From the NCBI RefSeq assembly GCF_964204865.1, contig NC_135252.1:10685383-10749382 (forward strand): a DNA stretch of 64,000 nt, written 5' to 3'. This document shows, piece by piece, positions 3,351 to 61,590 of the stretch. Both the position numbers and the translations under genes were made by a program. The stretch is from Styela clava. Taxonomy: Eukaryota; Chordata; Ascidiacea; Stolidobranchia; Styelidae. The first letter of the stretch is position 1, and every line of letters starts with the position of its first letter. The notes beneath the pieces were generated by a model. That model was not told the origin of the DNA. It saw nothing but the letters and a program-made list of their open reading frames with translations, and ran no database searches.

Positions 3351-3414
3351 TAGTTGCAATCACTGAAACGTAAAGACCTACCTAGTTGCAATCACTGAAA
3401 CGTAACGACCTACC
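3351..3414 (+). repeat. 2 x 32-base tandem repeat
   Basis: Two adjacent units of 'agttgcaatcactgaaacgt' plus a short tail, starting at 3352 and 3384, differing by one base in the tail. Confidence 0.75.
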
Positions 3415-18500: not shown

Positions 18501-19328
18501 ATATATGGTATTAGATATAACAGTTCTTATTGAATTAACATAATCTTCATCATAGAGTAGGCTGCAATTAAATTTCCAGTATCCACTACCACGTGGTGTT
18601 GGGTTGAGCTGAAGATCCAAAGTGCAAAGGGAATGGTCAGATCTTATACTTGGTACAATATTACAGGCTTTTACTTTTTCCAAAAGAGTATTTGATAATA
18701 AAAAAAAATCAATTCTGGTAAGAATCTTAGCTGGTTTTTGTAGATGTGAATAAGATTTTTCTGTAGGATGAGTTATACGAAATGCATCACATAAATCATA
18801 TTCACTTATAATATTCAGAACAGTTTCTCTAGATTTTTGATTACTATGTATCGTCCTTCCACCATGTTTGTCCAAGTTATTATTCAATACAAGGTTGAAA
18901 TCGCCCCCAATTACTAGGTGATCATATTCAATATTATCTAAAACTTCAATCAATTGTTCGAAAAATTCAGGCTTGTCCACATTGGGACCGTATAGATTTA
19001 GAAGACCAATTTTTTGACCTCCAATAGTTGTTTCCAGAGCAATGTATCTTCCATTTGAGTCTATTAGTGTTTTATGTATACTATAATTGACATTTATGTT
19101 GAACAAAATTGCTACTCCACAGGATTTACTTGTATGATGGCTGAATACACCAGTACCTCCCCATTCTTTTAACCATAGATTTTCATCTTTATCTGTTCCA
19201 TGAGTTTCTTGCAAGAAAATCATGTCTAGTTTTTTTCTTTTGAGGAATGTAAAAATTTGTTTCCTTTTTTCAAAGTTTGCTATTCCCCCTGTATTGAAGG
19301 AACCTATATTTAGTGCTGTACTATCCAT
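15594..19328 (-). pseudogene. LINE ORF2: APE endonuclease plus reverse transcriptase, two in-frame stops
   Basis: The frame is open from 19328 to a TAG at 16262-16260 (1022 codons), continues to a second TAG at 16079-16077, and then runs to 15594. The full product would be about 1244 residues, the usual ORF2 length. The endonuclease occupies residues 1-235, with 'FLQETHG' (E41), 'GGDFN' (141-145) and 'SDH' (230-232). The reverse transcriptase spans about 470-770, with 'NLDICKAFDSV' (D599) and catalytic 'AADD' (699-702) where Y/F-ADD is usual. The C-terminal part after the stops has a 'FC..H..T..HLFYYC' metal-binding motif. The start ATG overlaps the end of the upstream ORF by 8 bases. Both stops are amber; ordinary inactivating mutations are the simplest reading. 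Confidence 0.9.
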
Positions 19329-19776
19329 TAGTTAGAGAATCACAATTATAGTTTGCTTGGTAATTACCACAGGTACATGAAGGACCATTTTCTGCTGCAC
19401 TTATTATACCACAGGAACAAAAAGTTATTATTTGATTGCAATGAACATTATCACATTTTTTAAACATACCTTTTACAGGTGGCATGATTAATGAAGAACA
19501 ATGGCATTTGATGTAGACAGTTGAACAGGTTTTGCACTTCAGTAAATTATTTTCCCATTCACTTATTTCTAAACAGCAAGGTGAATAATTGACTAATTGC
19601 TGGCACAAGTTGCAAGGAATAGGGGTATTGAAATTTGCCACGTCTTTGGGTAGAGCAAAATAACCATCATTCTGACAGCACTGTTTGAGAATCAAATTCG
19701 ATGTGCTACAGTATTCACACATGACCTCTTTTGATTCATCAGAGAGTATTATTTCTGATCCGCATTTAGCACACAT
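19321..19776 (-). CDS. LINE middle ORF: cysteine-rich zinc-ribbon-like protein
   Basis: The product is 151 residues with 21 cysteines, most in CxxC pairs: C2/C5 with C20/C23, C55/C58, C81/C84, then 'CHC', 'CSC' and 'CTC' knots to C145. This suggests two or three zinc ribbons or a RING-like fold, perhaps for nucleic acid or protein binding. It begins 7 bases after the ORF1 stop and its TAG overlaps the ORF2 start. Three different frames are used in succession, which suggests coupled reinitiation. A separate cysteine-rich ORF between ORF1 and ORF2 is not part of the standard two-ORF LINE plan. I do not recognise the family. Confidence 0.75.
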   Translation of the reverse strand: MCAKCGSEIILSDESKEVMCEYCSTSNLILKQCCQNDGYFALPKDVANFNTPIPCNLCQQLVNYSPCCLEISEWENNLLKCKTCSTVYIKCHCSSLIMPPVKGMFKKCDNVHCNQIITFCSCGIISAAENGPSCTCGNYQANYNCDSLTNG

Positions 19777-19783
19777 TAGAAGT

Positions 19784-20734
19784 TTATCTGTCTGAATGAA
19801 GACGCTTTTGTTGTCCGACTAAGAGAATTTGATTTTCTTGCATTTTGGTTGACTGTGACGTCTTGGGTGTTTCGATAATGCTTTTCGAATTGGGTAGTGT
19901 ATGGTTTGATGTTTCTGGTGTTATTTGCAAAGAGGCTTTCTGTTTATTTTCTTCCTGAGTAGATGATGAAACATTAGACAAATTGATAACCTGTTCAGTT
20001 CGATTTTGTTGATGTTGAGACTTTGGAGGAAGCTTATCTATATTTACAATATCTTTTAGTGCAGTGATTTTGCTTTGTTTTTGCATTCTTTGTCTGTTCT
20101 CTTGGTTTTGGATTCTCAGTGGACAGTCAATTTTAAAATGCTCAAACGAACCACACTGCTTACACGTTTTTCTTTGACCATAATATTTAACTGTAAGCAT
20201 GTACCCATCAACATATATATAGCTTGGTATTGGATTTTCATTGAGTAATTTAGGTTGTATTTGAACATTCATGGTTCCTTGTCCTATTCCATCTTTATCT
20301 TTTGATTCAGAAACCTCTGAATCAAATTGAACATGTTTAAGCAAAGCAGTTTTTATCATACTTGTAGTTAGGTGACCTGGCACCCATGATATGTCAACCC
20401 TAACCTTTTCAGGCTCATATAAATACCACTTGCATTCAGGTATAGGGTGAGATTCCAAAAACGTTGATAACTTCAGTACCGCTGCTCTTGAAATACACGT
20501 TACATCGATAGAGTTATATGGTCTGACTGCAATGGTTTTAACATGATTCTTAGTTAAGCATTGTAAAATAATGTTTTTCGCTGCATTTCTGAAGCCGTCT
20601 TCGAATGGTTTTTCTCTCGAAAATTGCATATGCAGACAATGTGGTCGTCGAATTTCCCTTGTTTTAATTTTGTCTCTGAGTGGCGGAATAACGCCAGATT
20701 GACTTTTCAAAACGTCGGAGTAAGAAGCCGCCAT
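19784..20734 (-). CDS. LINE ORF1: Gag-like nucleic-acid-binding protein
   Basis: The product is 316 residues. A mixed alpha/beta region (about 30-185) resembles the RNA-binding part of LINE ORF1/Gag proteins. It is followed by one CCHC zinc knuckle at 191-204 ('CKQCGSFEHFKIDC', spacing 2-4-4) and a polar, low-complexity Q/S/N-rich tail. By family knowledge it would coat the LINE RNA. The start lies about 35 bases from the inferred 5' end of the element. The frame is intact. Confidence 0.85.
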   Translation of the reverse strand: MAASYSDVLKSQSGVIPPLRDKIKTREIRRPHCLHMQFSREKPFEDGFRNAAKNIILQCLTKNHVKTIAVRPYNSIDVTCISRAAVLKLSTFLESHPIPECKWYLYEPEKVRVDISWVPGHLTTSMIKTALLKHVQFDSEVSESKDKDGIGQGTMNVQIQPKLLNENPIPSYIYVDGYMLTVKYYGQRKTCKQCGSFEHFKIDCPLRIQNQENRQRMQKQSKITALKDIVNIDKLPPKSQHQQNRTEQVINLSNVSSSTQEENKQKASLQITPETSNHTLPNSKSIIETPKTSQSTKMQENQILLVGQQKRLHSDR

Positions 20735-20744
20735 GTCTCACGCT

Positions 20745-24096: not shown

Positions 24097-24696
24097 CTAA
24101 TATTGTATAGCGGGCAGTTTTGAATTCCTTATCGCAGTTTCTTTATCAAATCCAAGCTTCATACTGTAAAATTAATGAAATGTTGCAGTTTGAGTAACAA
24201 ACTTGACATGTTGCTATAGTAAAACTATTCTCTAAAACGTATGTTTTTAGACTGATTGTCTGAGCCCGAAACATACATTTTCAGAATCAATAACTTTCAT
24301 AAAAAGAAAATACTAAATGTAGCCGCTATTTCTCGGGTTAGCACGTTTTAAACTAAAATGTCAGCAATAGTACAAAGATAACAACTGAAGTAATACCCAG
24401 TAAAACATGTGATTGACAAAGCGCAAATGTGATGACATTGTGTTAAATTTCCTTTAAAGAATTTTCTATAGTTTAACGTTGCTTAATAATAACAGATACT
24501 CACTGCGCATCAATTTGAGCGTGATACATTTTTACTGCCAAATCTCCCTTTTTTTCAAACATCACTTCTTTATGGCGATGATTTTCTTCTAAAACTTTGA
24601 CTTCTCTTTGATTATTTTGTTCTTTTATTTTTATTTCGTGTTGTCTTTGTTCCCGTCGTTCTTTCCGTTTTCGTTCTTCTTGTTCCCTCTCCCAGT
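24097..24696 (-). pseudogene. P2: coiled-coil gene copy with early stop
   Basis: Exon a is 24696-24504, the same length (193 bases) and splice phase as in P1, encoding 'WEREQEERKRKERREQRQ' and then 'ENHRHKEVMFEKKGDLAVKM'. Exon b is 24163-24097 and encodes 'MKLGFDKETAIRNSKLPAIQ' followed by TAG just before the conserved GTAAGT donor. A decayed version of P1's last exon lies at about 23840-23960 and would no longer be translated. It is either a truncated copy or a shorter functional isoform; I favour truncation. The upstream exon was not found. Confidence 0.45.
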
Positions 24697-28419: not shown

Positions 28420-29712
28420 CAATATGAGTTTGCTTGCAATTCCCCGTATACCATAATGCCTCAACTTAGAAATCAGGATGTCATGATTCACAGTATCGAA
28501 AGCTTTCTTTAGATCTAGAAAAGTTGCACTGACATACTCCTTTCTTTCCAATTTATCATAGATATATGATACTGTATCTAAAATGGCATGTGATGTAGAA
28601 TAATTGCTCTGAAAACCGAATTGATATTTATTTATTACATCATATTTTGTTTAAAAAAATTTGCGAGTCTTTTATGTAACAAACGCTCAAACATTTTATC
28701 AATTGCTGAGAGGATTGATATTGGTCTATAATTTGAAATTAATTTCTTATTTCCAGATTTGAAAAGAGGAATAACCCGGGCGGTTTTGAGAGATGAAGGA
28801 AAGATTCCAAGTAACAGCGAGGAATTGAAGAATCTTGAGAGACAAGGGGCAATTATATCTGCAACTAATTTGATGAAGCGCGCTGGGATGTTGTCTGGTC
28901 CTACAGCCTTCCTGTCGTTAAGATTTTGTATTTCGATTAAAATTTCATTCGCGGTGGATGAGCTCAAAAAGATGGATTGGCTCACACGATTGCGGAGAAA
29001 AGGTTCGAAGTTAGCTGTATCATTGGAAAACTTATCAGCCAGGCTGGACCCAATTGTTGAGAAGTATTTGTTAAATTCTGTTGCGATTAAAAGTTCATCT
29101 CTAGTTATACAACCGTTTTCAGTATTAATTTCATCAATTTTATGCTTCAATTTCTTTTTTGCATTTGTGATTTGGCCAACTATTTGCCATGTTGACCTGG
29201 GATTACCTTTGGTTGTAGCAATAAGATTTTGATAATAGATTTGTTTAGCTTTATCTATGGTTCTTGCCAAAATATTTCTATATTGTTTAAAGTAAGAGCT
29301 CTGGGAACTGTTACCTTTCAAGAAGTGAGTTTTAAACATTTTATTTTTGTGTCGAATACAAGCGTTTAGCCCTTTGGTTAACCATGGTTTTGATTGTAAC
29401 CTTTTCTGACGCCGAGAAAGTGGTCGAAGTGGGGCATGGCGATCAATTAGGTGAACAAATGACTTTATAAAGTCGTTAAAAACACTATTAAAATTTTGGA
29501 TATTTAAATTAATTCCAGCAAATTGATTAGCAAAAATTACCTCTGCATCACTACGAAAGCAATCGATTGAGAATGTTGACATGTCCCTTGACATTCTGCG
29601 ATTGTATGTGTATGATGGTTTGATGCCTCTCAGACAGCACATGATCGGAAAATGGTCTGTGATGTCTGACAGAACTATGTGGGAATCTATTTTTAGGTTC
29701 CTGATATTTGTA
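28420..29712 (-). pseudogene. LINE fragment: endonuclease end and reverse transcriptase first half
   Basis: Reading leftward, the frame contains 'LSDITDHFPI' (last endonuclease motif), 'KPWLTKGL', 'KAVGPDNIPARF', 'ARVIPLFKSG' and 'NYRPISILS'. After a frameshift in the T/A run near 28655 it continues with 'YQFGFQSNYSTSHAI' and 'DLKKAFDTVNHDIL', and it ends near 'HYGIRGIASKLI'. The open part is 29642-28635. It is non-functional because of the frameshift and because the catalytic FADD half lies in the opposite orientation. Confidence 0.85.
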
Positions 29713-29714
29713 TA

Positions 29715-30751
29715 TACATTTGAATAATTTATTATTCAATAATAGTTATTTGAATAATAGATCTCAATATGTTCAAGTGGGATCATACTGTTCTTCTCCC
29801 TTACTGGTGACGCACGGAGTTCCTCAAGGTAGCTGTTTGGGCCCTCTCCTTTTTCTCGTATATATTAACGACATAACTTATTGCTCTTCATTATTTTCCA
29901 AATTGTTCGCTGACGATACTAATCTCCTTGACAGCGACAAATCTTGTGCAGTTCTTCAGTTGAGAGTAAATACTGAAATTGCAAAAGTGTCAAGTTGGAT
30001 GAAAGCCAATAAATTAACACTAAACATTGAAAAATCAAAATCTATGTTAATATCTCCATACCAATGCAAATCGAAAAATGTTTTGGAAATCCAAATTGAT
30101 AATAAAAAATTGGATAATGTCCATTCCTTTAAATATCTTGGTATATACATTGATAGTAAAATGAAGTGGGATATTCACTTGTCCAACCTGGCCGTTAAAT
30201 TATCCAAGTCTGTTGGAATGCTATACAAGCTTAGAAGATACACATCGCTTACCACCTTACGCATGATTTACTATTCTTTATTTCAAAGCCATATCCAGTA
30301 TGGCATAATTGCTTGGGGTTCAGCTGATAAAACCTTATTACACCGCATTGAAATTATTCAGAACCGAGCAATTCGTGCAATTTCTGCTTCCAGTTATATT
30401 TCACGACTTAGTCCTATTTATCATAGTCTTAAAATTATTAAATTAGCAGATATTTATGAAATTGAGGTATTGAAAATAATGCACCAACATCACTGCAAAA
30501 AACTCCCTTCTGCTTTCACCAACTATTTTTTAAAACAGAGCAACGTTCACTCTTATGAAACGCGTTCCTCTGTCGGGTGCTCATATTATGTAAATCGCTT
30601 CAGCACCAAACGAACTCAAAACTCGATCAAATTCGTTGGTGTTAAATTGTGGAATAACCTCCCTAATAACATTCGATCCAGTAGTTATAATTCTTACAAA
30701 CATGCACTAAAAAGCCTATATCTTGATGCCTATAGGCCTAGTTGTCATTGA
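29715..30751 (+). pseudogene. LINE fragment: reverse transcriptase second half and C-terminus
   Basis: The frame is open from 29708 to 30751. It contains 'SYLNNRSQYVQVGSYCS', 'GVPQGSCLGPLLFLVYIND' and catalytic 'LFADD' within the first 70 codons, then the thumb and C-terminal region ending with 'KLWNNLPNNIRS'. There is no ATG at the start because the upstream half is inverted next to it. The frame itself has no stops, so the insertion is not very old. Confidence 0.9.
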
Positions 30752-39157: not shown

Positions 39158-42100
39158 GCTACACCGTGTAAAATCTTCCGATCACCATAAATGATATTTA
39201 CATTCAGTTTTATTGTTTATATGTAACTGTAAAGTTTAGCTCGGGCTTACGTTGACGCCACAAGGACCACTAAGGTATGTTCGTAAACCCTTTCATCCCA
39301 TCATATTACTTGATCTATTTTAACAATGGTTAGAGTAGACAATAGAGTGCGGACCGACGTATACAATTCTGTATCAAACTTTAAACAATAGTTTCATGAC
39401 CAGTAATGCACATATCACTAACAATTTCGAGAACTGTTCATTTGCGATTCGAGAATGATGTTGTTATTCAAGCTTAGTTAAAAAATATACAATGCCATTA
39501 ACGACATAGCAAAGTGGAAACGACAGAAACGTAACTAGGCGTCAGCATGCTTTGACTGAGAAACAGCAAATACTCATGTAATTTCATATTTATTTGCTAA
39601 TGTATTTTAGTGTTAGATTCACTAACATATTTTTAACAATTCTAGAATAGCGGTTGTAATTTCAAAAAAGTTGCGAAAGGGATAAAAGGTTAAAAAACAC
39701 TGATGTGAACAATCCACCTAAACCGACAACTCAATCGATGGATTATAAATACATTCCTATTTGAATATAATTTGAATCGTTGAATTTACAAAACGAAATC
39801 AATCATAGTATTTTATTGTGATAACCTTCTCATATAGGAACTATTATAACGTGGTGTGGTGGTCGCGCCGTTATCGTATGATTGGGCTTTCCAAAAGTAT
39901 CTAATTTACATACCAGATCACGAGAAATTAATTTTAGAAAGGATCACAATTTATCGAGCTCGGTACGCCATATATAACATCTTAATGGGTGATATGGTGG
40001 ACATTGGATTAGAATTAGAATTTTACCAATTCTAGAATAGCGGTTGTGATGTCCAAAAGTTCGTGCATTCCTATTTGACAAACAACTTGCTGTCCATGCT
40101 CATTACCAGTCCGTGGTACCGAGAAATAATTAAACAAATATAAGCAAACGAATTGCAAACGAAAAAAAAAATAATAAACTTTTCCATGATTCATACTCGG
40201 AAATTTTTTAAAATATATACATATATTTATTAGGGTATATCTACATACTCCTAATAAAACGAACCAATTCACAGTATACTGAATATTCAAATGTGTATAT
40301 CCCGTCTTTCAAATATTCTTTTGTTTCTTTTTCGAAGCAGCGATCCTGTAGAAATAATATTTATTCCAATTTAGCCTTTTCATTGCATGGAAAATGTTTC
40401 ATATAAATCATACCAGCTGAAATATCATAATATCATAAATAAAACGTGAAAGTTGCTTTTGAAAGTTCTCAAAATGATGGCAAATTAAGATAGAGTACAG
40501 GAGAACTGTGTAAATTTCAACACCACTGATGTGCTTTTCTTAATTAATGTTTCAGCTAGAACCAAATGCCAGTGAAATACGCAACGTACCAGACTTGAAC
40601 TGATTGCCGAACGAGAAATCCGATAGATAAATGATCATTCAAATTCATATTCCATTAATCTAGTCCGAATACATAATATTATAGTTATTATTCGAACACT
40701 TATATTTAAAAATTGATCGCTTTGAAAGTTTTTCCTGCAATTTACTTACCTAATATTGTATAGCGGGCAGTTTTGAATTCCTTATCGCAGTTTCTTTATC
40801 AAATCCAAGCTTCATACTGTAAAATTAATGAAATTTTGCAGTTTGAGTAACAAACTTGATATGTTGCTATAGTAAAACTATTCTCTGAAACGTATGTTTT
40901 AAGACTGATTGACTGAGCCCGAAACATGCATTTTTAAAATCAATAACTTTCATAAAAAGAAAATACTAAATGTAGCTGCTATTTCTCGGGTTAGCACGTT
41001 TTAACCTAAAAATTCAGCAATAGTACAAAGATAACAACTGAAGTAATACCCAGTAAAACATGTGATTGACAAAGCGCAAATGTGATGACATTGTGTTAAA
41101 TTTCCTTTAAAGAAATTTCTATAGTTTAACGTTGCTTAATAATAACAGATACTCACTGCGCATCAATTTGAGCGTGATACATTTTTACTGCCAAATCTCC
41201 CTTTTTTTCAAACATCACTTCTTTATGGCGATGATTTTCTTCTAAAACTTTGACTTCTCTCTGATTATTTTGTTCTTTTATTTTTATTTCGTGTTGTCTT
41301 TGTTCCCGTCGTTCTTTCTGTTTTCGTTCTTCTTGTTCCCTCTCCCAGTCTGTAAGTAAAGGTTTTCATGTATTGGATTCGTGGAGTGAGTGTGATTTGA
41401 CTTAACCTAAAATTTAGAAATAAATAAAATAGATTCCCTGCATTGCCATGACGCGTTCTACAAAATCATACGGAATTCCCTCGAGGTTGCAATAGTTTAC
41501 CCGAAACTATTCTCTCGATTGAGTTTGTAGAAGCTCAGACATGTTACAGGCATTGCGGAATTAATGATTATGAAATGAATGCAGAGTAATATCGCAGCAT
41601 TTTGCTAGGTAAAGTTAACCAGGCGACAACTGTCAGGATAACTTTACCAGTTTTGGGCTAGCTAGAAGGATGCATATATATATATAAGATATTTTTTAGC
41701 AATTAATTTAATGTTTTTCTCTACAGAATTGTTTTTTTTCAAATACAACAAGCAAGGAATAGAATAAGCTTTGTAAATATTAATATATATCATACCATGA
41801 CTTGGGCCTCCTCCCATGGCGACGAGTTTTACCAATGGTATTTTATTCAGAGCACTGTAAAATATATATACACTGATTAAAAGGCTTAACATCAAGGCAT
41901 AGATAGTGTTTCTACTACAGTACAAGGCAGTACAAAAGGCAATAAGTACAATAGTACAAAATGAAGGCTGTGAAGTTGCCAGGTTTAGGCTCTAAAAGCC
42001 TTTCAACATAATGCGACAAGATATTCACTTCGTCTTATTAGACTATAAACTGTTTCTAACTTTCAGTAATAACCGTAACCATAAAGTGTCTGTTCTCGAG

Positions 42101-42901: not shown

Positions 42902-45299
42902 ATGGCCGACTTTGTGAAAACTGTTGGAAATGTTTACCACAGAGACGGAGGTAATATATATGTTTCATTTATACAGGCAGAAATTTTCTTTTTGTTTTAG
43001 TAGCTTTTACTTTTTACCAGTTACCGGTACCGATGTGCATTTTATCATAGGCTAAAATGCTGCTAGCACAAGATTTTAGGCACCAAATAAATATCTCATT
43101 GAGAAAATAAGACGTCACGTGGATCAGATAAATGTCCCACTGCAGTACGTCATTTAACAATCGTGTTCGTGCTATCATGAGTTACCATCAATTTGAGATA
43201 GAATAAAAATGTTGAAATTAAATCGAAAAGAATAAAATACAACATTTGATATACTCAAGGTGTTAGCGATAAAGTTTGGATACCGTTTCATTGGCCATAC
43301 CTGTAAAACGATCGATACAAATGAACGAATGTTGTTTTGTGTGATGCTGCAGCGACACTCAATGCTCAAAGCTGGTGAAGTCCCTTATTCGATACTCGAT
43401 TTATAAATAATATTTCGTATCCAAAGCGTATGTACGGAATTCAATTCCTTAATGTGAAACATTAAATAAACAGTTACCAAAATATTAAAAACACTTTTTG
43501 TGGAAGCACTTATAAATATACGACATGTGAGATATACAAGCATTATTGAACACGAAATGTACAATGTTTTGTTGTCGTTGTGTGAAACCGTTTTTTTTCG
43601 CATCAATTACCTCAAAATAAAATAAAATTGCTTGAAAGGTATCACAATCTTATATTTTTTTATTGTTATTTTTTGTGAGTTTCATGGGACCCGGATGCTT
43701 CATCCAGAATTTCTCTAATTTAGTCTGATCAAGCACGACAACACCTTTTTATTCCTCCATACTTGACCACCTCCGTCACGCTTGACCGCCCATTGTTTCA
43801 ACAGACTTGCTAATCCAAGCTCTGCCGTATTGATACTGATGCGCTATATTCGTGCATATATATATGTTTGATCATTTCACTCTGGTTTTGTCAACAATAC
43901 AGGGTTTCTCAAGATAGTTACATAAGTAATAAGAAGTCAAGTGAAAGAAATGTGGCGTTGAAAATATTTCCTAATAAAATCTACCTACACACATTAATAT
44001 TAGTGACTTAATTTAGCGTGATTACCTATCGATCTTAAGATCGGTAAGTATATTGATAGGTATTTGTCTGTCTGTGTGTCTGTTAGATGCACGCGATATC
44101 TCACGAAAGCGAGATTGAATCTGCTCCAGATTTTGCATGTGCATTCATCTTATCTCGGACCAGAAGCCTATTGATTCTGGGCGAATTATGTCGTATAATT
44201 ACCGAGTTATCAATCAATTATTGATATAGTGATCTAGATTTTTGTAAAGCAAGAGAATTTTGAAACCCGCCGAGTGTGTGTGTGCCATGCGCAGTGCGCA
44301 AGTTACAAGAGCGGATGAATCGAAACTGCAGTTTCTGTTTTGGGGGATCCCCTAACTATCGATCGATAAGTCTTCGGTTTCCAACCGATATTCTCGTTTT
44401 TGTATTGAGATCGAAAGCATGAGCTGGAAATGAAGAAAGAAGAAGATGGATTCCGTCTATCAGTGCAGCGTATTGACAATGAAAATGAACTTAATAAAGT
44501 AAAAGCAGGCCATGATCACGAATACAAATGCTTGAAAGAAGGTCACAAACATAGTGAAGAAATGTTTGATAAAAAAGGAGATTTGGCATTGCGGTTTCAT
44601 AAACAACAAATTCAACAATAGTAAGTAACCATCGACTTCTAATTTTCAGTATTCAAGGATGGAAGAACCCACTAAAAAACTACTACCTTTATTTTATTTC
44701 AATATATTTTTAAACTTTTATCAGGCTATACTTCACTTCAAATTCAACTTGTGTTGCACCACTACGTGACATTTCGAAACACTTGTCAGTTGAATTTTTC
44801 AGTTAAAACCTCAGTTAAAAACCTCCTCTCAGTTAAAACCTTGCCGCAACTGATGCTCTACTTTTTACTTAATATATTTTAACGTTGCTCTATTTTACTT
44901 ATAAGTAAACGTCCGATAAAACATTTGTACAATATCTCTTTCCAGTCAAGAATTGGGATGTTCTCCTGAAGCAATAATGAACACCGTTTCACAAAATCTA
45001 CCAGCAATAAAGTTTGAGTAAGATTCTTGTTCTGTAACTTTATTTTGTATATTTTGTATTCAATTCTCGTGTCAGAATCTAACACGAAAGAAGACCTAAT
45101 CAAAAGTCCTGGTTCGTTGTTGAATTTACACTTGTCAAGCAAACACCCAATGGGGATGAATCAATCTGATATAGAAAATAGCTAAAATCAGAAAAACATC
45201 ATTTTTTCGGCTTTGCAAAACTTTTTCTTGTTTCTTTCACCTTGAACAGAATAGAATGCAAAGATATAAATTCAATAAAATTATTTTCATTTCAGCTAA
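42902..45299 (+). CDS. P4: small charged coiled-coil protein
   Basis: Three exons join in phase: 42902-42950 (ATG, donor GTAATA), 44410-44620 (donor GTAAGT) and 45296-45299 (stop). The 87-residue product begins 'MADFVKTVGNVYHRDG' and is mostly charged helix, with 'HEYKCLKEGHKHSEEMFDKK' and 'GDLALRFHKQQ'. The latter corresponds to 'NHRHKEVMFEKRGDLAIKM' in P1-P3, so it is a paralog on the opposite strand with the same phase-1 intron. The first intron ends 13 bases after a Helentron-like element. It lies 1.3 kb upstream of the pseudo-caspase gene on the same strand. Function is unknown. The first exon assignment rests on the phase match and a plausible donor. Confidence 0.55.
43660..44023. other. 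Intron sequence of P4, nothing further seen
   Basis: AT-rich intron DNA upstream of the Helentron-like element. There is no alternative exon or repeat that I can support. Confidence 0.3.
44024..44396 (+). mobile_element. Helentron-like element (HINE) in P4 intron 1
   Basis: The best preserved short copy in the window. The 5' end 'ctatcgatcttaagatcgg' is followed by the 'tctgtctgtgtgtctg' microsatellite and the conserved middle. An inverted copy of the 5' motif ('ctatcgatcgataag') then precedes the hairpin 'tcggtttccaaccga' and the terminus 'tattctcg', which is followed by T residues. It ends 13 bases before the splice acceptor of P4 exon 2. Confidence 0.75.
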
Positions 45300-46567: not shown

Positions 46568-49500
46568 ATGTCATTTTCATCCAATATGGGGAAATACAAT
46601 TCAAAAATGGGTAAGTAAGACTATCTATTAATTTGTTTTTGTGCTTTTTAGATAAGTGACAAAGATAAGATAATACTAAAGCATGAAGAGATCTATATAT
46701 TTTGTCCGTTAATATTCAATGTGTAAAATAGTGAATCTGGAATTAACTGATCCCACTAACTAATACTTGTGCTATTTATTTGAAGATCCACCGGAAGGTC
46801 GCTATCCATCACATACCAAAGAATATCAAGCACATCCTACGTCTAACAGTGCAAAATATAAAACAAATGGCAAACACATGAGGCCAAATAATCACAACGG
46901 AGGGGAATGGGGATCCGTCGAATCCAATGATTACGAGCATATACAGGGCCATGGTTATCGTCCTGAGGAGAGCAGGTATTATAGCCCGAATTATTCCTAA
47001 CATAATAAAATTACCATATCTAATCTAAACATTTTGACAATTAGAAAATAAATATAAGAATATTTTGATAATCGACCATTGTCATTGTGTAACATTTTTT
47101 AAGACACGAAAAACCATCGCGACCACATTACCAGGAAAAAGGAGAAAATGATCCATTTAAAGACATGCAATTCGATGATGAAGAGCTTCGTAAAGAGGAG
47201 CTCAGGCACCAACAAAACTTGAAAGCATTGGACCAAGATTATGAACGCAGAATGAGGGCTCTTGAAACTGTTCGAAAGCGTAAAATGGAGGAAACTCTAG
47301 AGTGAGTGAAAACGTATATGCAAAGGTTGAATGTTAGGATTACTTAAGATGTGGTTATTGCATGAATTAATATTTATTTTTTTTTGTTTCAGTGAGTACA
47401 ACACGCATCCTAATTTTACAAAAAACAGGTCGGCGTTTGCAGATTCGTACAAGTACGTCCAAGTATATTACACTTTTGGTTTTTAATATACAGTATATAT
47501 ATATATATACAGGGTGACCCAAAAGTAGGTATACAGTTATTAAAATTATTATACAGTAAAATAGTTTAATAACTGTAGACCTACTTTTGGGCCACCCTGT
47601 TTCTATAGCTTGCATAATTGTAACTGAATCAACTTTTAGTTTACACGGATGGCATGGATGTTCGTGATGCAGCAAAAAGCAGGGATCTCATCTTAAAAAA
47701 GCTCAAACTTTCTCCGAAGTTTTGATGACTACATTTTACAAATTTTACTAAGAAAACTGAAGTACAACCCTTGTATTTTCAACGACTCCTCATATTAGCC
47801 CCACAAAAATAATTTGCAACTTTGATTATCTCAGAACCACAAAAACATAGTGACTTTCAGCAGATCTTCGAAGTCACGTTCCTGAAACCATATTAGCTTA
47901 ACGAATAGACTCATAGAACCTCTACGCCAAAATTTCAAATCACATCAACATAGATGAGCCAATACGACGGTGTGACTTCACTGCATTACTGCAACTCATC
48001 TAAAAATTCGAAATATATTTTAGCTTCAGCGGTTTTAAAAATCGTGGACTGTGTCTGATTGTTCAAAACTCAGATCGATATGAAAAAAGTACAGGTGAAA
48101 TTTTACTTTCAGTTTTTGTATCATTCTGAGATATTTTCAGCAAACGAATTGAATATATATATAGCAAAATTCTGAGATCAGAATAGATCACTAACTTCAC
48201 AAACAAAACGAAGGTAATAAACATTACCTTTGAAGAATTAATTTGGAATAAATCGATTATTGAACTCTTGTTCCCGAAATGAATTGGTACATGAAATAAT
48301 TTATCATATGCCAGCGCATTCCACTGCTAATAGATGTGTATGGAATTGATTCACTCGAATTCAGTGATTAGTTTTTCTTCCGACCTTTTGTTTTACTATT
48401 TTTAACTTAACTTACAGAAATTCTGAAGGGCATTTTTACGCAACTTGGGTATGAAGTGAACATGAAGAAAAATTTGAATGAAATGAAAATGTTGAATTTA
48501 CTACAGTATGCGAGTTACCAAGATTTCGGAGATTATGGAAGTTTTGTTACTTTCATTTTGGGAAAAGGTAATCAATTCGAAAACAACATATTCGAAACTA
48601 ATCCTATTTGAAAAAGAAAACGATTGATTTATCTGTTTTAGTTAATTCATGACTTTCAATTGTTTTATAGTTCATATTTGTGTAATAATTTTGACAGCTG
48701 CTCCTTATGTGCAGGTACAGATAAGTATGTGGAGACAGTTGACAAACAGCCATTTGAAATCCGAACAATTGTTAATTTTTTCAAACCCACAGAGGTTCCA
48801 AGTCTTGCGGGAAAACCAAAACTCTTTTTCATCCAGGTATAACAGTAAAATGTAAATTTCATATTTATGTCGGTGGTAAAATATTTTTATATGTAAAATA
48901 ATTTATATATAAAAATAAACCAGCATGAAGTGAAAACTGAATGAAGTTGTAACATTGGTGCAAGATGAATCCGTCAAAAGTTACGCAGACTACCTCCTGA
49001 AAATTGGACTATTTTCGTATACAAAAATATTGCAACGGTGTTATATCGTGGTTCATTATTCAACTGTTTATGAATCTAGCAAACAATTCTACATTTCAAA
49101 CATTTTGTTTTGGTGGTTTGAAGTTTCTATCACACTCAAGATATTTGTTTGTTAGAAATTTTATCTTACCTAACCAAATTTAACAATTTGCTCTAGAATG
49201 ACATCGACATCTTGAAAGACAAAGGTCTTTGGAAAGAAAGTCAGCATGACAAACCAGTTGTAGATTACATGGATGCGTTTGTTGTTCGTTCTACTCACAG
49301 AGATTTTATGAAAAATTTTACAAATATCATCAAACAAGACAGCAGGTTGAATTTGAGTGGTTTTATCCTTGAGACGTGCCTCTCCAACGTTTTTACCCCG
49401 AATGTAAATTATATATATATGATAAATGATCCGCGACTTTTAGGTTGATTTATATGTATTCATTATATCTTTCAACACCGTGGTTTTTCAAAGTTTTTGT

Positions 49501-50105
49501 TTTTATCATTTTAGATGGATTTATACCGTGAAGTGTCTGGAACTATGATTCTCTTTATACTACCGAGAGTTTGCATGAACGTTCAATGTTGTCATACTAT
49601 GAATTTGGTGTACATTTGCAAATAAATATGAAAAACTAAACATTCAGAATGACTTTTTATATTTAAAATTAATTTTGCTACGTGAATGAATACCCAAATC
49701 AATACGTTTTCCCTAACAAAGAAATTCCTCAAACTCAATAAATATATACATGTATTTATTATTTTAGCAGAATGCCATTGACCAGAATAATTGATAGTGT
49801 GTCAAGACACACCATGCCACTGGCGAGTAATAAAGAGAAGTACGAAGTGGTGTCAACTCTTTTGAAGGAGGTAAATTCAATCTATTCATTAAGATTGCTT
49901 GCTTTAAGTTCAATTCTTAATGTGGTTCTAGAACTAATTTTTTAGTCTAGTCTTTTATCTCCTAGTACGTCATGCTTCTATACGCCATCAGTACCTAGCT
50001 CTTCTTAGATATAAAGTATAAAAACTTGTATATATATACCCAACTGACTAATATTGAAATGTTTGTTTTCAGGTTTACTTCGGTCAGAACGAGTCGTCAC
50101 TGTAG
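46568..50105 (+). CDS. Caspase-fold protein lacking catalytic residues (pseudo-caspase)
   Basis: Ten exons join in perfect phase: 46568-46610, 46786-46975, 47104-47301, 47393-47428, 48024-48094, 48418-48567, 48715-48836, 49197-49345, 49768-49870 and 50073-50105. They encode 364 residues. Residues 1-155 are charged, with a probable coiled coil around 'RRMRALETVRKRKMEE'. The caspase fold starts at 'NRGLCLIVQN' (162-171) and continues with 'QLGYEV', 'GTDKYVETVDKQ' and 'FFKPTEVPSLAGKPKLFFIQ'. It then covers 'PVVDYMDAFVVRST' and 'LLKEVYFGQ' at the end. In active caspases the histidine sits in 'SHG' and the cysteine in 'QACxG'; here these read 'GKG' (K229) and 'QNDID' (D272). The loop carrying the substrate-binding arginine is also shortened. 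A proteolytically dead regulator is inferred. The second ATG at 46586 would give an N-terminal 'MGKYNS'. Confidence 0.82.
47510..47599. mobile_element. Mariner-like MITE in pseudo-caspase intron 4
   Basis: The element is 90 bases and almost entirely palindromic. It starts 'cagggtgacccaaaagtagg' and ends with the inverse form 'cctacttttgggccaccctg', with about 37-base inverted repeats and a short centre. The terminal motif resembles Tc1/mariner ends. A 'ta' precedes the left end, but the right flank is 'tt', so the TA duplication is not intact. Confidence 0.75.
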
Positions 50106-52684
50106 TTTATTATTAAAGACATCCATACTTACGGAGGCGATTATATAGATCTGTAAACAGTATTTGATTTATTGCGAAGCTTTCTTTGTCACAAACCATT
50201 TTGCAATAGGGATGTAGATTATATTTGAATATTGCCTCGACTTGTTAACTTTAAACATAACATTGAAAATTATAAAGTCCTATAATTATAAACAAATGAA
50301 ATCCTGCAAATTGATTGTTTCACGAACAGCAGTCGTCGCATGTTTTTTATCAACTTGTCTCTCTACTTTTGTAGTGTAACTTTTCTCTGACTCAATGTGC
50401 TGTTTTGTTTATGTATATTCGCATTTCGGGATTATTGTCTGCTCTTTATTCCGTGATAGTTTAATGTGAAAAGTACTTTCTGGTGATATTAGTTATCCAT
50501 ATTTTATTCATATGAAACAAGTAGTTATTGAGTGTTCATATTTTTTAAATAGCTAACAGCAACTGGCTTTCACTTTTATGAACGCGTTGAATTATAACAT
50601 GTTCGAAGATTTTTGTAATTAGCCTATATGAGTATATGACAAAAACTATAAAGCGGACTTGTCAATCTTATATACTTGTTTGTAATGTAAATATATCTTG
50701 TGGAAGAAATGTGTTCACTAATAAAAGGCCTCTCGCATGTAAAGTTTTCTACGTTCAGATTGGGATATTAAATTAAAAACCAAAGTGCAGTGTAAATTCA
50801 CAAAATTGAAGGCTACCAAAATTAGCCAGCCGCTCAACCCAAGGCCAAGCTTAACACGAACAGATCAATAGCCAGTGACAGATTAATGGACATATTATAT
50901 ATAGTTTGTTGCTACTTCAAGTATCCAGTTTCATACTTTCTAACCGGTTGAAACCTGTGCAGACAAAAGAGTTAACAACCTAGCATTGAGAAACCTTCAG
51001 GACTTTTTCACACTCTCATAATTTCAAGTTGAGAATTTTATGTACCCTTCTTATGCATTGTATGCGAATGGCAGTCGGTGAAAATATTTAAGAATCTATG
51101 AATGACGTGTAATAGATTGATGACTTGGGTTCATTCAGTTCACTTATATAATCTCCGATTGTCTTGGAGATATTAGTAGCGCCCAAGCAGGAGAAGTACG
51201 TTGATAGACTCAAAATGTCTAGCTTCGTAACCATGTGAGTTCTGTTGCTATTGTTGTTGAGGCAATTTTGGGGGCAGAAAGAATAGCTTTTCTCCGTAAC
51301 TAATGAACCAATCGCTTTCAAATTTTGCCGTTCAAAGATGAAAGTTCTAGCCAGAATCTAACACTTTTATTTTATTTTCTTCGACTCTTTTTTGAGTTCC
51401 TTGATATCCGATATTTAGCCTAAAATGTTGCTGTTTTATTTGAGCACTATTTTTGAACAGGTAAACATGACAGTCAGGCACAGTCGCCCCATCTGGCTAA
51501 TCGAGAATTCACCGTTTTTTACGTTGGTCGTTCCTTGCTCACCGAAACAAAGCATTGAACAAGGTAGGTGGTTTGGTTTCGAAAATTGAATCTAATATGT
51601 CCAGGATTTATTGTTAGAAACTAGGTAGGGTACAATCTTAGAATAAGTTCTGAAGTTTGTATTCACAAAATTTCGCGCAATTCCACCCAATCTCGTCCTA
51701 GCGGCAGCGGTATCTGTAGGTATACATACTGTACTTGTACAATACCAAATGGACCTATAATCAGGGCTGTCGTCGATGTGAACCCAAAAACAAGACATCA
51801 GAGAAAAGAAATAATAAGATAACAAAGAACTAAATGTAATAAGCAAAATGTATTCGTACCAGTGCGACGAACCGTGTCTAATTCTACTTCGCACTAGGAA
51901 AGATTAGCTCCAGCACTTCTTTATTCTTAGAAGCTATCTGTTTCATATCACCGCAGCTCACTTTCACTTGTAGAATAAACTTGACTTTTTGTTTAGAAAG
52001 ACTGATTCCCTCTATGATTCACTGTGCTGGCATGGATAACACGGCATGGATAACACAATGCTTATTAGCTTGTAGAGAAGCGCAAAAGAGTCGTTAGTGG
52101 AAAAGATTCAGCCACTTGTGCTCGATTCTTTTTTTCGGAAAACGTCAATCGGAATTTTCTTACAAAGAATATTGCCATTAACGGATCAATTTGCTAGCAA
52201 AGTCCATATTCGTGTTTTTGGACACGTTAGTGGACATAACGATCGTTTTGGTATTTTTGTTGTTCTTGTTCTTATTTGTCTTCTTCTTGGTATCGTTATG
52301 AAAAAATCGCTTTTCTCGTTGATTACTGGACCAATTGCTTTGAAATTTTCAGTGAGTAAAGATTATATTTTTCCCCAGAAGGCTATTACTTTTATTTATT
52401 CTTAAATTTTATATGAATCCTATGAGATATGATATTTCATACAAAATTTCGCGGTATTTATTTTTACTCATGGGAACACTGTTTTACACTTATTTCAAGC
52501 GGTTTCGCGATCGATTGTCTTTCTCAGTACTACAGCTACTGTAGGTCGGTACTGGTAAGTTGCCATACCAGTACCGTAACGCAGTGAAATTGACTTATTC
52601 CTTCCGCGGTATTACTAATGCTGCAATGCAAGTTTTATAGCCTATCGTATGCGGAACGGAATATCAGACCTACAGGTTCGGTAC
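50106..52684. other. Intergenic, no gene recognised; fragments of a dispersed repeat
   Basis: An 'aataaa' at 50720-50725 is a candidate polyadenylation signal for the pseudo-caspase gene. At about 52230-52400 a dispersed repeat ('agtggacataacgatcgttt', 'actggaccaattgctttgaa') opens a 102-codon frame (52097-52405). Fragments of the same repeat occur at about 51280-51345 and 53735-53900. I regard this frame as repeat-derived. Confidence 0.45.
50720..50725 (+). terminator. Candidate polyadenylation signal for pseudo-caspase
   Basis: AATAAA about 615 bases after the stop codon. It is the first canonical hexamer noticed downstream; position only, with no transcript evidence. Confidence 0.3.
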
Positions 52685-53668
52685 CGGCACTGGTAGCTCA
52701 GTACGTAAGTACGATACTGGTACTGGTGCCGGTACCGGTGTATTACCACAATGAAATTACCGTAACTTATTCTTTCACGGTCCTACCAGTGCAGTAATGC
52801 AAGCGTTGTAGCACTTGTAGCCTACTATATTTGTTTATTTTGATGAGAGTCTACTGGAAACAACATAAAATTTGAAAGGGAAGAATTGTTCTGTGATCAA
52901 TTATCTGTCCTAAAGTGTAAACAACATAAAATTTGCAAGGGTACAACTGTTCTGTGATCAATTACCGTATATGGCCTACAGTGTACAGGTAAGATGCTGG
53001 CTGACTGCTAACCGGTACTGGTTGCTCAGTACGTAAGTACGATACTGGTACTGGTGCCGGTACCGGTGTCTTACCACAATGAAATTACCGTAACTTATTC
53101 TTTCACGGTCCTACCAGTGCAGTAATGCAAGCGTTGTAGCACTTGTAGCCTACTATATTTGTTTATTTTGATGAGAGTCTACTGGAAACAACATAAAATT
53201 TGAAAGGGAAGAATTGTTCTGTGATCAATTATCTGTCCTAAAGTGTAAACAACATAAAATTTGCAAGGGAACAACTGTTCTGTGATCAATTACCGTATAT
53301 GGCCTACAGTGTACAGGTAAGATGCTGGCTGACTGCTAACCGGTACTGGTAGCTCAGTACGTAAGTACGATACTGGTACTGGTGCCGGTACCGGTGTCTT
53401 ACCACAATGAAATTACCGTAACTTATTCTTTCACGGTCCTACCAGTGCAGTAATGCAAGCGTTGTAGCACTTGTAGCCTACTATATTTGTTTATTTTGAT
53501 GAGAGTCTACTGGAAACAACATAAAATTTGAAAGGGAAGAATTGTTCTGTGATCAATTATCTGTCCTAAAGTGTAAACAACATAAAATTTGCAAGGGAAC
53601 AACTGTTCTGTGATCAATTACCGTATATGGCCTACAGTGTACAGGTAAGATGCTGGCTGACTGCTAAC
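52685..53668 (+). repeat. Tandem array, 3 x 328 bases
   Basis: Units start at 52685, 53013 and 53341, each with 'ttaccacaat' 58 bases in (52743, 53071, 53399). They differ by only a few bases. Each unit opens with palindrome-rich 'tactggtgccggtaccggtg' and contains its own internal 62-base duplication ('aacaacataaaatttg' twice, each followed by 'tgttctgtgatcaatta'). A diverged partial unit lies just upstream at about 52540-52684. The array is bordered on both sides by copies of the dispersed repeat described at 52230 and 53735. It is not coding. Confidence 0.9.
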
Positions 53669-56344: not shown

Positions 56345-59300
56345 ATGGAAAGCGACAGGAAAACGACAGAAGAAGCAGTGTCCGGAAACACTGAATCAGG
56401 TATTTGTTTACTAAAATTCTACCTTTTTTTTTTATTTTTTATTGTTACGATACGACATTTATACGGAAGACAATACATACAAACTGGTGTGGATTTAGGG
56501 GCAAATAGGGGTGCACGTTTAGCTTAGTGGGTGGATAACCTTCAATGCGTATAGCCCTAACATTAAGCTACATAAGCACGAGATGTCGCAAGGGATAAAA
56601 ATGTGCAAATATCACTTCGCTAATTTGAAGGACTGAGCTATTTTTTCTTTTTCTTCGGAGTAATTAAAATCCTATCCTATTCACATTACATTCTACCGCA
56701 AATGTATGTATCCGTTGATTGTGTATCCCAAACATACATGACAAAGCAAATTTTTGAAGGAATCGCTGTTTTGCTGAAATAAGGATACAGCAAAAATGAC
56801 AAACAGCAGCGCAAAAATAACAAGCAAATCGATACCTGTTTTGTCTTTCCAGAACCATCGCCAGAGTCGATAACGGCTTCGTCATCTGACAGCTGGGAAA
56901 AGGTTGATAGACATGTTGTTTCAGGCGAATGTTGCGATGAATATGTACATTTGGCGAGTAAGAAAGACAATGTAATAGAATCTGAATCTCAAAAGTTGAG
57001 ATGTGATGAAATGCTGGAATATACTTCTAATGAATCTGGCACCGAAAGGAAAGTTTCGTTACCTGAAACTCACAGTGCGGAAAAGCGTCGAAAGTATGCT
57101 AGTAGAAGTTTTAATCGACTCAGCAATGATGGTAATAATTATTGTGTTTTTATGACTTTATATTATCATTTTACATTCCATCTTCTTGAGTTTGAACTCA
57201 ATTCATTCCCCACCTTTCAAAATAAGGCTCCGATGGACCTTCTACCACTATAACAACTTTATCTCAAAATATATTACGCACAATAGCGCTAACTACCAAA
57301 ATATCGCAAACCCAAGAACCATATTTTTTCTTTGGATCAACACATTGGCATTTGTAGTCTGTAACATTGCAGAAGCTATTTAAGCAAGCGCTCTCTTTAA
57401 AAACAATAGACTCTATAGCGAAATATATTCAAAAGAATGGTGGGGCTGATGTGACTCAACGACCCCGTTACATTTTGCGAGTTTCGTTCTCACTTTACGT
57501 AAATCATGACCATACAGGACCTTAGGGTCGCGTCTGGCGAATATGGCTCAGGATCAAATGACAATCATTTTTCGAAACAATCGATCGTATTGAAATTAAA
57601 TTATAATAATAAACGAAAGCACTAAAAACTCGTCATTTTTTCAACAATTTAATTCAACAGGTCATAGTAATGACGCAGAAGAGTCATTTTTGTCTTCTTC
57701 GACAAAGAAAAATGGTTTCGGTGTCATTGAAAACAACATATTTCGGTAAGGCAATCAATTCTTTTCAAAGACAATTATATTCTGAAGAGATTCAAGTTTG
57801 AAAGCATGCAATTAAACATCAATAACACAAAATGGTGTTTTTAAACTAGACAGCAGTTAAAGTATTTTTCTGTTATACATGATCTATCAAGAAGCAAATA
57901 GCACAGAAACCAACACTCTCAATACATGTAAGATTCCTTCTCGGGATGTATATTATTATATTCCTGATTTCGTTTCTTCGTGTTAAAAGAATGCATATCT
58001 GCCTGATAAGAATAAGATGATTTTACATGTTGGTATTCACATTTAAGCAGTTGCAGAAAGTTGTAGTAGATGACCAATGTTTTAAATTTTGATATAGTAT
58101 AGCATATAGTATAGCATAAAATCAGTGTTATAAACGAGACATCATTATTTCAAACCACGGTTAACTTAAATTATTGTTATTTATGAATTAGTGATTACTT
58201 TTTAGGGATTATATATGAAACAACGATGTAGGCTACGTAACGAATCTGATCTGTACTTTCATTTATTTTACCTGCATAAAAGCCATAAATTCTTAGCCAC
58301 GTGATTCAGTTATGATGCTGTTCTCGGGGTTGCTTATTAATATCATGTATACTAATGTGGAATAATTCATTATTTCATTCATCGTTGTTTACTGTTTAGT
58401 CCCTTGCAACGAATATTCTACCGAAAAACAACTATCAACGAAAAATCTTCATTGGTAAATAGAGATTCTAGAATCGAAGATGATGATGACGAAGTCATAA
58501 TGCCTCAACTACCAATTCCAATGTCCCCATCTTATAATGAAAAATATGGAAGTAAGTTCGAAAATGTTCCTTATTTGATCTCTCCAAATCAGCAATTGAT
58601 AATTCAAACCTGACGCTCGCTTAACTATGAATTATTTCACTATCTCCGCATCGTAGCGAATATATTGCTGAACCAATACAGCAGACAGCAGATATGCCAA
58701 TCACGCCTGTGACAGTTTCTTTAATTAGTCTTATTTTTATGCATGTCAAAGAATTACCAGAAGGCATCGGAACAGGAAGAGGAGTAGAAAAGTGTAGACT
58801 GGATGAACTTAAAGCAGAAGAAGGTTCAACGAAAAAATATCAAAACACGTCATATTATCGAGATGCGTCGAAAGGATTAGTAATGGCATTCCTTGGCGCA
58901 GGAGTAATGTATGGCCTGACAGCGGTATTTGTTCGTTTGGCTGGTGAAAATGGAGTAGATGCCATTGAAGCATTGTTTGGCAGAAGCATGTTCCAGGTAT
59001 ATATATTTCCCAACATCAGAATTAGCATCTCATTATTTAACTTTTACCTGAACAAGCTTTGAATTCTGGTTTTATAATTTAACTGCTTTCTAATGAGAAA
59101 ATCATTAATAAATTACTTGGACACGGGAAGAAGGAAATTGAATAATCTCATCAAAAGTGTTCCATGCACTACTACGACAACTAATATTAGTAAATACTCG
59201 TAAATATTATTGAAACCTAATTTATTAGTATAATACAATTACAATTTTTTTTCACGTATAGACGATATTATTTGGCTCGGTGCTACTCTGTAAACGCGTT

Positions 59301-61590
59301 GGATGGAAGCCACCACCTGGAAGAGCAGTACGATGCCTATTAATTTCTATAGCATACTGCATCGGAACGATTGGGTCATATGAAGCATTTGAGTAAGAAA
59401 TATATGAATTCATGCTATTAGCAACGCTCATTATATCTTCTATAGTCTCTCTATACAATTCTCTTGAAGTTTAGGTAAGAGGAAATATTTTGTGCTAATC
59501 AGTGAGCTAATGTTCCAATTTTATTACGGCTACTACTGCCCTGGGTATGAAAAAAAACAGTGATTACGCATAAACAATAATAAAATTCAAGGGTACAAGC
59601 CATCTTGTTTATCCAACCAATTAAGCTATTTATTCTTCAATGGCTCAAAGTTTATATATTGTTAAATATTCGACATTAAACAAATTGAAATCTAAAATCG
59701 ATGACCCTTGATGGCGTGCTAGTTCAAGGATCGGTCAAGATACGAATAAATTTAATTTACGGGTCCCGATAACGCAAATATTCCACTACCAATTTTAAAA
59801 AGCTAAAAATGATTCGCAATATAATAATAATTGTTTGATAATTATTATAGAGTATAATTCCATATTTGACCATAACATACAAAATATTCCCCTTTTTACT
59901 TAATTATACTCCCAGCTCACTGTCGACAGAATAGCAATTCACATTGATTTATCAGATATTTAATATTGAACAACAATGTTGCAATCCTCAAAACTATGCT
60001 GTATTGTTTTTCTACAGTAATATTCTATTCTATGACTTTTCATTTATTTTAATTTCAGCGTCATACCACCTGGAGCAGCCGTAGCAACAAGGGGAGCAGC
60101 TCGCACAATATTTTCTATCATATTTGCATATCTTGTATTGAGAGAAAAGGTTTCCAGTGGAGATATTGTTGGGCTGTTTTGTTGCTTTATTGGAATCGCC
60201 CTGATTATTAGTGAGTGCAAATACCTGATTTATTTACTTTTAATGAATGCAAGAAAATCGCGCACTGTTTGTAGCACATGAGGGTTGGCACAACTTAATT
60301 TATATATACACCTTATGTTCATACAAATGCAAATTTATTTATACTTATATTTCATAAAACTAAAAAACTTGCAGTTGCAGTTCTGCCATCTCAAAGAATT
60401 GTAGGCCTACGACACACATTCGTCCATGAGAAATCAGTTTATATTTTAATGCATGTAAATGTATCAAATTTTAAACTTCCACTCAACTATCATCAGATAT
60501 GGGGGGATACATCTGCCTCAAAATGGAAATGAATTTATCATTATGAAACGTATGAATAATTTACGATTTTCTAAAGTAAACTCTCATCACCAATTTTTTG
60601 TCATCACAGCATCTGGGATGACATCTGGAGATAAAGATTATATCACCCCACCTGGTATAGGAGATAATGCAACTATAATAAGAATCTACGGATACTCTTT
60701 GATTCTTGCAAGTGCTATTGGAAGAAGTCTTGGCCATGTGGCCGTTAGGGGAGCTAGAGGTATAATATTTGTTGTTTTTTGTTTCATTGCCCTTAGTTGA
60801 AAATGTCAGGTCGATCAAACAAGAAAAGAGATGTACAATGTATACAAAAAAATAACCGGCAACTCATTTTATATTTTGAGATTACATTTGTGAAACCCAT
60901 TGGACTTTTTTTAGGTCTAGGATGACTATTCTAAACTATCCAATTTACTTTAAGACGATCTCAACATTTTCAGTGTAGTATTCTACCATTCAGCACTAAC
61001 GTTTGTTTTTGCCGGCATTTTACTCGCAACTGTGAGAAAACCTACATGGCCGCCGTCTTGGACGGGAGCCGGATATGTAGCAGGAACTTGCTTGGCTTCG
61101 TCTGTAGGAACATTTTGCAGTAATCTGTGAGTATTTCATGAAGTGTAATAATTACGTTAGGGGGGAATAGATTAGGGATCTAATCCTGTGAATCCAATTC
61201 CAATTATCTTTTTTACACACTCTTTTATCTCATTACATGCATTTTCTTGAGAAAATTCCATGCTGTTGAATAATACTATTTAAAAAATATTATCAAAGGT
61301 AAATATAATTGTTTTATGTCAATAGGAATATCAGAAAATTATATTCGTCAACAAAACATGTTTTTTTTTCTATCAGGGCATTGAAGTATGCACACCCAGC
61401 ACTCGTAAGTTTTGGACAAAACGCCGACGTTGTGGTTAGTCTAACTTTGCAACATTTGATATTACAAATGGCACCAAAGCCAATGGAGTTGTGCGGAGTT
61501 TTAACAATTTTCTTCGGACTGGCCGGATTGACTTTTTTCAAATGGTTCCAAAGTAGAAGATACAATGGAGAACATGAAAGGTTGAAATGA
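56345..61590 (+). CDS. EamA/DMT-superfamily transporter (SLC35-like), ten exons
   Basis: Exons 56345-56399, 56853-57131, 57661-57745, 58400-58551, 58692-58996, 59262-59392, 60059-60210, 60610-60759, 60979-61126 and 61377-61590 join in phase to about 556 residues. Exon 5 could instead start at 58752, shortening the product by 20 residues. The first half is hydrophilic and acidic ('IEDDDDEV'), probably cytosolic. About ten hydrophobic segments follow, starting with 'GLVMAFLGAGVMYGLTAVFV'. Family-like features are the internal duplication of a five-helix unit and 'PPGAAVATRGAARTIFSIIF' with 'LREKVSSGDIVGL', which matches the 'P.....................EP....' helix pair of EamA proteins. The substrate cannot be told from sequence. 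Exon 9 uses the second of two AGs, because the first would read into a stop. Confidence 0.8.

Follow-up and report, generated by a model that had tools for sequence, protein, structure and literature searches.

The gene at positions 46568-50105 on the plus strand of the window (the whole 64,000-nucleotide stretch of Styela clava DNA analysed here, which is 10685383-10749382 of contig C3 in the 376.6 Mb genome that was searched) encodes a caspase fold in which both catalytic residues are replaced, and it belongs to a dead-caspase family of at least four genes that seems to be kept by natural selection, the selection value coming from two paralogues of the window gene (L054 and L056). We regard this pseudocaspase family as maintained because its members share dead sites and introns, form one clade and show purifying selection between L054 and L056, and because 33/34 of the other caspases compared are intact. 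The interpretation that we favour, and to which we give an even chance, is that the window protein counts among at least four maintained pseudocaspases and combines a coiled coil at its N-terminus with a non-cutting fold that would regulate an intact caspase by pairing with it, much as reported for cFLIP-L.

Gene structure

The ten exons join without a stop into a protein of 371 aa, with GT/AG borders and agreeing phases throughout, and the DNA of the window is of animal type, with GT/AG introns (Table 1). The sequence-only reading had likewise seen ten exons, agreeing splice phases and no stops, all of which stands, but its length of 364 residues does not, since two splice sites have been moved. 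The exon 4 donor at 47452 (CAA/GTACGT) looks stronger than the one at 47428 chosen earlier (CAG/GTCGGC) and adds 8 aa, and the exon 9 acceptor lies 3 nt downstream of the earlier choice, which removes 1 aa; K229 and D272 of the 364-aa model are K237 and D280 of the 371-aa model. Exons 1-4 are less certain than exons 5-10, and a further exon upstream of exon 1 is possible, as an AG-like acceptor precedes exon 1.

Table 1. Exons of the pseudocaspase gene, in window coordinates.
Exon	Positions	Strand	Feature	Support
1	46568..46610	+	Start codon ATG; weakest exon	GT donor, phase; coding signal of its own absent
2	46786..46975	+	Low-complexity charged region	Splice borders, phase; coding score best in true frame
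3	47104..47301	+	Coiled-coil-like helix (DDEELRKEELRHQQNLKALDQDYERRMRALETVRKRKMEETL)	Predicted helix; similar open frames in L056 and L054
4	47393..47452	+	Linker; weaker alternative end 47428	Splice borders, phase
5	48024..48094	+	First caspase strand RGLCLIVQN	Homology; phase-1 end common to three paralogues
6	48418..48567	+	Ends FILGK(G)	Alignment; borders and phase identical in L054, L055, L056
7	48715..48836	+	Core strand SLAGKPKLFFIQ	10/12 residues as in caspase-3; borders common to three paralogues
8	49197..49345	+	Starts NDIDI; family motif YMDAFVVRSTHRD; without substrate loop L3	Alignment
9	49771..49870	+	Small-subunit helix and start of dimer strand VVSTLLKE	Alignment
10	50073..50105	+	VYFGQNESSL and stop	KE/VYF continuation by pattern in L054 and L055

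The N-terminal half is predicted to be a coiled coil rather than a death-fold domain. A Pfam search of its 170 aa, with E allowed up to 10, matched nothing, and no DED was found in them, in line with the sequence-only reading, which had recognised no death-fold domain here; a Pfam search with exon 2 gave no match either. In exon 3, a helix is predicted over residues 25-64 of 65, and the block folded from a single sequence has a pLDDT of 91-98 from residue 31. A comparable open frame lies upstream of the caspase exons in two paralogues (0/5000 shuffles for L056, 24/5000 for L054), and no exon 3-like frame was recognised in L055.

The caspase fold and its dead catalytic site

The caspase part of the gene, exons 5-10 (48024-50105, plus strand), matches Pfam Peptidase_C14 (PF00656) with an E of 4.6e-15 and 56.4 bits (cut-off 21.4), so that the caspase domain read from these exons by eye is borne out. 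The best PDB matches are ancestral caspase-3/6/7 (3.5e-13), followed by cFLIP-L (4.3e-12) and by caspase-3 chains (from 4.1e-11). A profile of the four dead members finds the active-caspase profile with 99.4% probability and an E of 1.9e-21 over 158 columns (exons 5-9) and, with exon 10 added where known, with 99.5% probability over 196 columns reaching the small-subunit end (joints a few residues off). Among the paralogues, Peptidase_C14 scores are 50.3 bits for L056 and 26.6 for L055, in models with joints a few residues off. On these sequence comparisons, the window gene belongs, as a fold, to peptidase family C14. By sequence alone, the match of the small-subunit half is weaker: its score was reached by 10/3000 shuffles for caspase-3, 482/3000 for cFLIP and 2603/3000 for caspase-8. 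When the 49 residues of exon 8 were folded alone from a single sequence, helices took the place of a caspase strand (mean pLDDT 73), which, for a lone fragment modelled without an alignment, is weak evidence either way.

Both catalytic residues are replaced, as had been proposed. FILGKG aligns with LLSHG, which puts Lys (codon 48564-48566, exon 6) at the His site, and FFIQ-ND aligns with FIIQ-AC, which puts Asp (codon 49200-49202, exon 8) at the Cys site. A search for an alternative exon carrying QACxG, suggested earlier for intron 7, came back empty: in the three forward frames of introns 5-8, none of the peptides G[TS]D, [ST]HG, [QH]AC or SW[RK] occurs, and a scan of all six frames of the window for [QH][AST]C[RQKSA]G was negative. 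A tblastn search of the window, at E up to 10, gave no further caspase. In 5/5 executioner-type split loci, QACRG is interrupted exactly between its Q and its A by a phase-0 intron (L031-L035, of which L033 and L034 are near copies), although this border is not universal, the intron of split locus L037 lying five codons earlier. The exon 7/8 border of the window gene falls at that very position, and exon 8 opens with ND, not AC. A missed catalytic exon is unlikely because the motif searches were empty and this border coincides with the executioner intron. The catalytic His, the Cys of QACxG, the substrate-binding Arg residues and the loops L1 and L3 that mark an active caspase are all lost or altered in the window gene, and cutting by its product is very unlikely.

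The losses are concentrated around the substrate groove. With segment borders as given in the literature, the domain has 193 aa vs 231 in caspase-3, and 36/38 missing residues fall within L1, L2, strand 5, L3 and L4; L1, in exon 5, has lost the equivalent of caspase-3 Arg64. The strand 4 core in exon 7 is nearly intact (Table 1) and the last strand, which in caspases is the dimer interface, retains 7/12 caspase-3 residues. The motif YMDAFVVRSTHRD aligns with strand ADFLLAFSTVPG, and the 12 residues that follow it in active L032, YYAWRNQACGSW, have no counterpart when the paralogues are included in the alignment. The earlier claim that the loop carrying the substrate-binding arginine is shortened can thus be put more sharply, as a loss of these 12 residues. 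An intron lies at the border by the missing loop in 3/3 active paralogues checked (L032, L033, L035) and in none of the dead genes, and a single deletion could have taken both the loop and the intron. In the region that forms strand 5 and L3 in active caspases, the four dead members share the cluster YxDxFVxRSTxRD, part of their 43 invariant columns. The dead family also suggests that selection can maintain a caspase fold whose substrate groove is gone.

A family of dead paralogues among intact caspases

Searching the genome with the window protein found at least three related genes on contig C10 (L054, L055 and L056), with 38-46% identity per matched exon. Across exons 5-9, 4/4 of these genes, the window gene included, have five GT/AG borders with phases 1,1,0,2,0. 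In the order window gene, L054, L055 and L056, the His position reads K/T/T/T and the Cys position D/R/D/G. Exon 10 (VYF) was recognised by pattern in L054 and L055; the same pattern search did not find it in L056. In L054, read as the reverse complement, exon 9 is present twice in tandem (6994-7098 and 7671-7775).

Over 186 codons of L054 and L056, dN is 0.18 and dS 0.77, giving a dN/dS of 0.24; bootstrap pN/pS ranges from 0.24 to 0.47, and 0/2000 replicates reach 1 or more. Between the window gene and all three paralogues, synonymous sites are saturated (pS 0.76-0.86, pN 0.41-0.43) and yield no ratio, a pattern that agrees with constraint. The view that this is a maintained rather than a decayed gene therefore gains support from three dead paralogues of the same structure and from the dN/dS between two of them.

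The family search gave at least 54 matching places, with exons counted apart and the window gene included, from which 30 loci with a single-frame match and ten further regions were fetched. Among 34 other caspases compared, the catalytic His is kept in 34/34, the Cys in 33/34 and both in 33/34, the exception being L005, which has Ser. These 34 are L001-L030 plus L031, L032, L033 and L035, and leave out L034 because it nearly duplicates L033, L036 because it is dead and L037-L040 because they are split or broken; the His of L022 falls in a gap in one alignment, yet its sequence reads STHGGYV, and L031 covers three exons only. Some carry further domains: a CARD in L001, a death domain in L004 and a sub-threshold DED match in L002 (33.3 vs 35.9 bits). 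The genome thus offers the dead family several kinds of intact caspase as possible partners: executioners and those with a CARD, a death domain or the sub-threshold DED match.

The single-exon caspases (among L003-L030) form a large clustered expansion, at 18.78-20.09 Mb of C6 and at 24.2 and 29.2 Mb of C1, which includes at least one death-domain caspase (L004) as well as L005, with Ser for the catalytic Cys. A second, separate dead caspase, L036 (C9:3417000-3423000, minus strand, with its ORF from about locus position 3368), has a 333-aa open frame that matches Peptidase_C14 with 31.4 bits (cut-off 21.4), reads SSQSD at the His site and has FMLRV replacing QACRG; upstream of it, the same strand carries open frames rich in coiled coils. 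No relatives were confirmed in the viral contig set (6 pattern stretches) or the genome contig set (55).

Possible mode of action

The window protein probably acts through binding and not through cleavage. In the mechanism that we favour, (i) the coiled coil would cluster the protein, (ii) the caspase fold would use its last strand to pair with an intact caspase, whose activity it would set, (iii) a low dose would raise the activity of the partner and a high dose would block productive pairs, as reported for cFLIP-L with caspase-8, and (iv) the conserved YxDxFVxRSTxRD surface, which replaces the substrate groove, would be a contact or docking site. This partner role is our best guess because the core and last strand are kept, a coiled coil is present, the genome holds intact caspases, and cFLIP-L and dipteran homologues provide an analogy. 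By that analogy, the protein could plausibly act in the manner of cFLIP and may have a role in cell death or inflammation.

Nearly as likely as the partner role, although we would lean against it if asked to choose, is that the caspase fold has become a scaffold for a task unrelated to caspases, with YxDxFVxRSTxRD binding another partner and the coiled coil building an assembly. This would fit the 43 invariant columns with their cluster at the place of strand 5 and L3, and a family stem that is long in the trees (2.19 changes per column, from models with joints a few residues off). cFLIP lacks YxDxFVxRSTxRD, the most conserved new motif, whose purpose could lie outside caspase biology, and the kept dimer strand may reflect folding only. 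Yet dimer strand and core are still caspase-like, and pseudoenzyme functions are often tied to the active enzyme (PMC7586951, in excerpt), both of which speak against an unrelated task.

Relationship to cFLIP and other pseudocaspases

The partner role borrows its logic from cFLIP, to which the sequence-only reading had likened the gene. In human cFLIP-L, the catalytic residues are replaced by R315 and Y360, the protein forms a heterodimer with caspase-8, and cFLIP has two DEDs (excerpts of PMC7586951 and, for the DEDs, also of PMC2779465). What cFLIP-L and the window protein have in common is a caspase fold in which neither catalytic residue is kept, a shortened L1 and IQN at the Cys site; in cFLIP-L, however, there are two DEDs and the linker and L3 region are longer, whereas the window protein has a coiled coil and no DED that we could find. 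The analogy holds for the kind of change (a basic residue replacing the His, IQN where the Cys motif lies, a shortened L1) and fails for membership, the DEDs being missing.

That the gene is nevertheless a true cFLIP orthologue, with its DEDs lost or exchanged, strikes us as improbable. These common features at the active site, the second place of cFLIP-L among the PDB matches and the p-AU of 0.30 for a clade of cFLIP with the four members (0.32 with the window gene alone) would suit an orthologue, but the best trees keep the two apart, the N-terminal half has no DED found by Pfam at E up to 10, and the small-subunit half is nearer caspase-3 (10/3000 shuffles) than cFLIP (482/3000). A published hypothesis also dates the duplications that gave cflar after the ascidian-vertebrate split (PMC2779465, in excerpt). 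In the trees, the four dead genes group together (100/100) within a 12-row group with caspase-3, caspase-8 and cFLIP types (100/98), apart from the single-exon expansion; near copies were dropped (5 in the window-gene-only tree, 12 in the paralogue trees), and L034 and L036-L040 were never included. Four groupings were tried, and the tests reject none of them (p 0.30-0.41): with cFLIP; with cFLIP and caspase-8; with caspase-3, L032, L033 and L035; and with the same plus L031. An executioner placement found in the window-gene-only tree (87/84) fell away with the paralogues added. The executioners (caspase-3/7; L031, L032, L033, L035) share with the window gene the core, the end VSTLLKEVYF and the phase-0 intron after the active-site Gln, and differ from it in that the window gene has lost active site and substrate loops.

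Two further readings fare worse. A decaying pseudogene or mis-joined model would suit the long branch of the window gene when it is alone in the tree (3.3), but is very hard to reconcile with ten exons free of stops or frame breaks and with three paralogues whose exon borders agree with its own, two of which show purifying selection. We give least credence of all to an enzyme that is still a protease, via other residues or an unseen alternative exon, since both positions vary within the family (K/T; D/R/G), the substrate loops are gone and the motif searches of the window saw no such exon.

Regulatory dead caspases are well described for vertebrate cFLIP and have been proposed for a few invertebrates. 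For mosquito caspase-like decoys, judging by the title of Bryant et al. 2010, the activity of a paralogue is enhanced. Likened by description only, these decoys resemble the dead family in being inactive caspase homologues duplicated beside intact paralogues, and differ in being described in Diptera, where an excerpt of PMC3141678 presents inactive caspase homologues as possible regulators of other caspases. Pseudocaspases are already known, including an invertebrate one without both residues: mussel Mg2-like lacks both catalytic residues, and an oyster 3/7-like group is also without catalytic residues (PMC7836458, in excerpt). These bivalve homologues, likened by description only, parallel the dead family in the double loss in an invertebrate, but they are placed with caspase-2 or in a 3/7-like group whose members mostly have p20 only, and the excerpted text of that paper makes no mention of a coiled coil. 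Searches of open-licence papers brought up no description of pseudocaspases with a coiled coil as a family, which is not proof of absence.

A broader and more tentative proposal is that the four genes represent an undescribed animal family of coiled-coil pseudocaspases, with an origin apart from that of cFLIP, that lack both the substrate loop and its intron and have YxDxFVxRSTxRD instead, and that a self-clustering, non-cutting partner sets caspase activity without a death-fold domain. If true, a duplicated and selected family with a coiled coil in place of DEDs would have reached the same solution another way, and pseudocaspase mechanisms would become comparable by test.

Surroundings in the window

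An NCBIfam search and Rfam and tRNA scans of the window gave no match, and a bacterial promoter scan is unsuited to its animal DNA. A short charged exon (KEGHKHSEEMFDKKGDLALRF) at 44409-45018 (+) has three relatives in the window, at 41165-41257, 24512-24604 and 13442-13534 (-), with 48-55% identity and in duplicated segments; as a source of exon 3, this upstream coiled-coil exon was rejected, there being no significant match (E 4.4). Long open frames resembling retrotransposon endonuclease/reverse transcriptase and zinc knuckles were seen by eye at 16260-19331 (-), 19321-20737 (-), 28635-29735 (-) and 29705-30751 (+). Downstream of the caspase gene, 58631-61590 (+) holds open frames for a membrane protein that is likely SLC35G-like and whose EamA match stays below threshold (22.5 bits, cut-off 28.2). 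Three tandem copies at 52683-53638, spaced by 328 bp, are 99% alike over the 300 nt compared.
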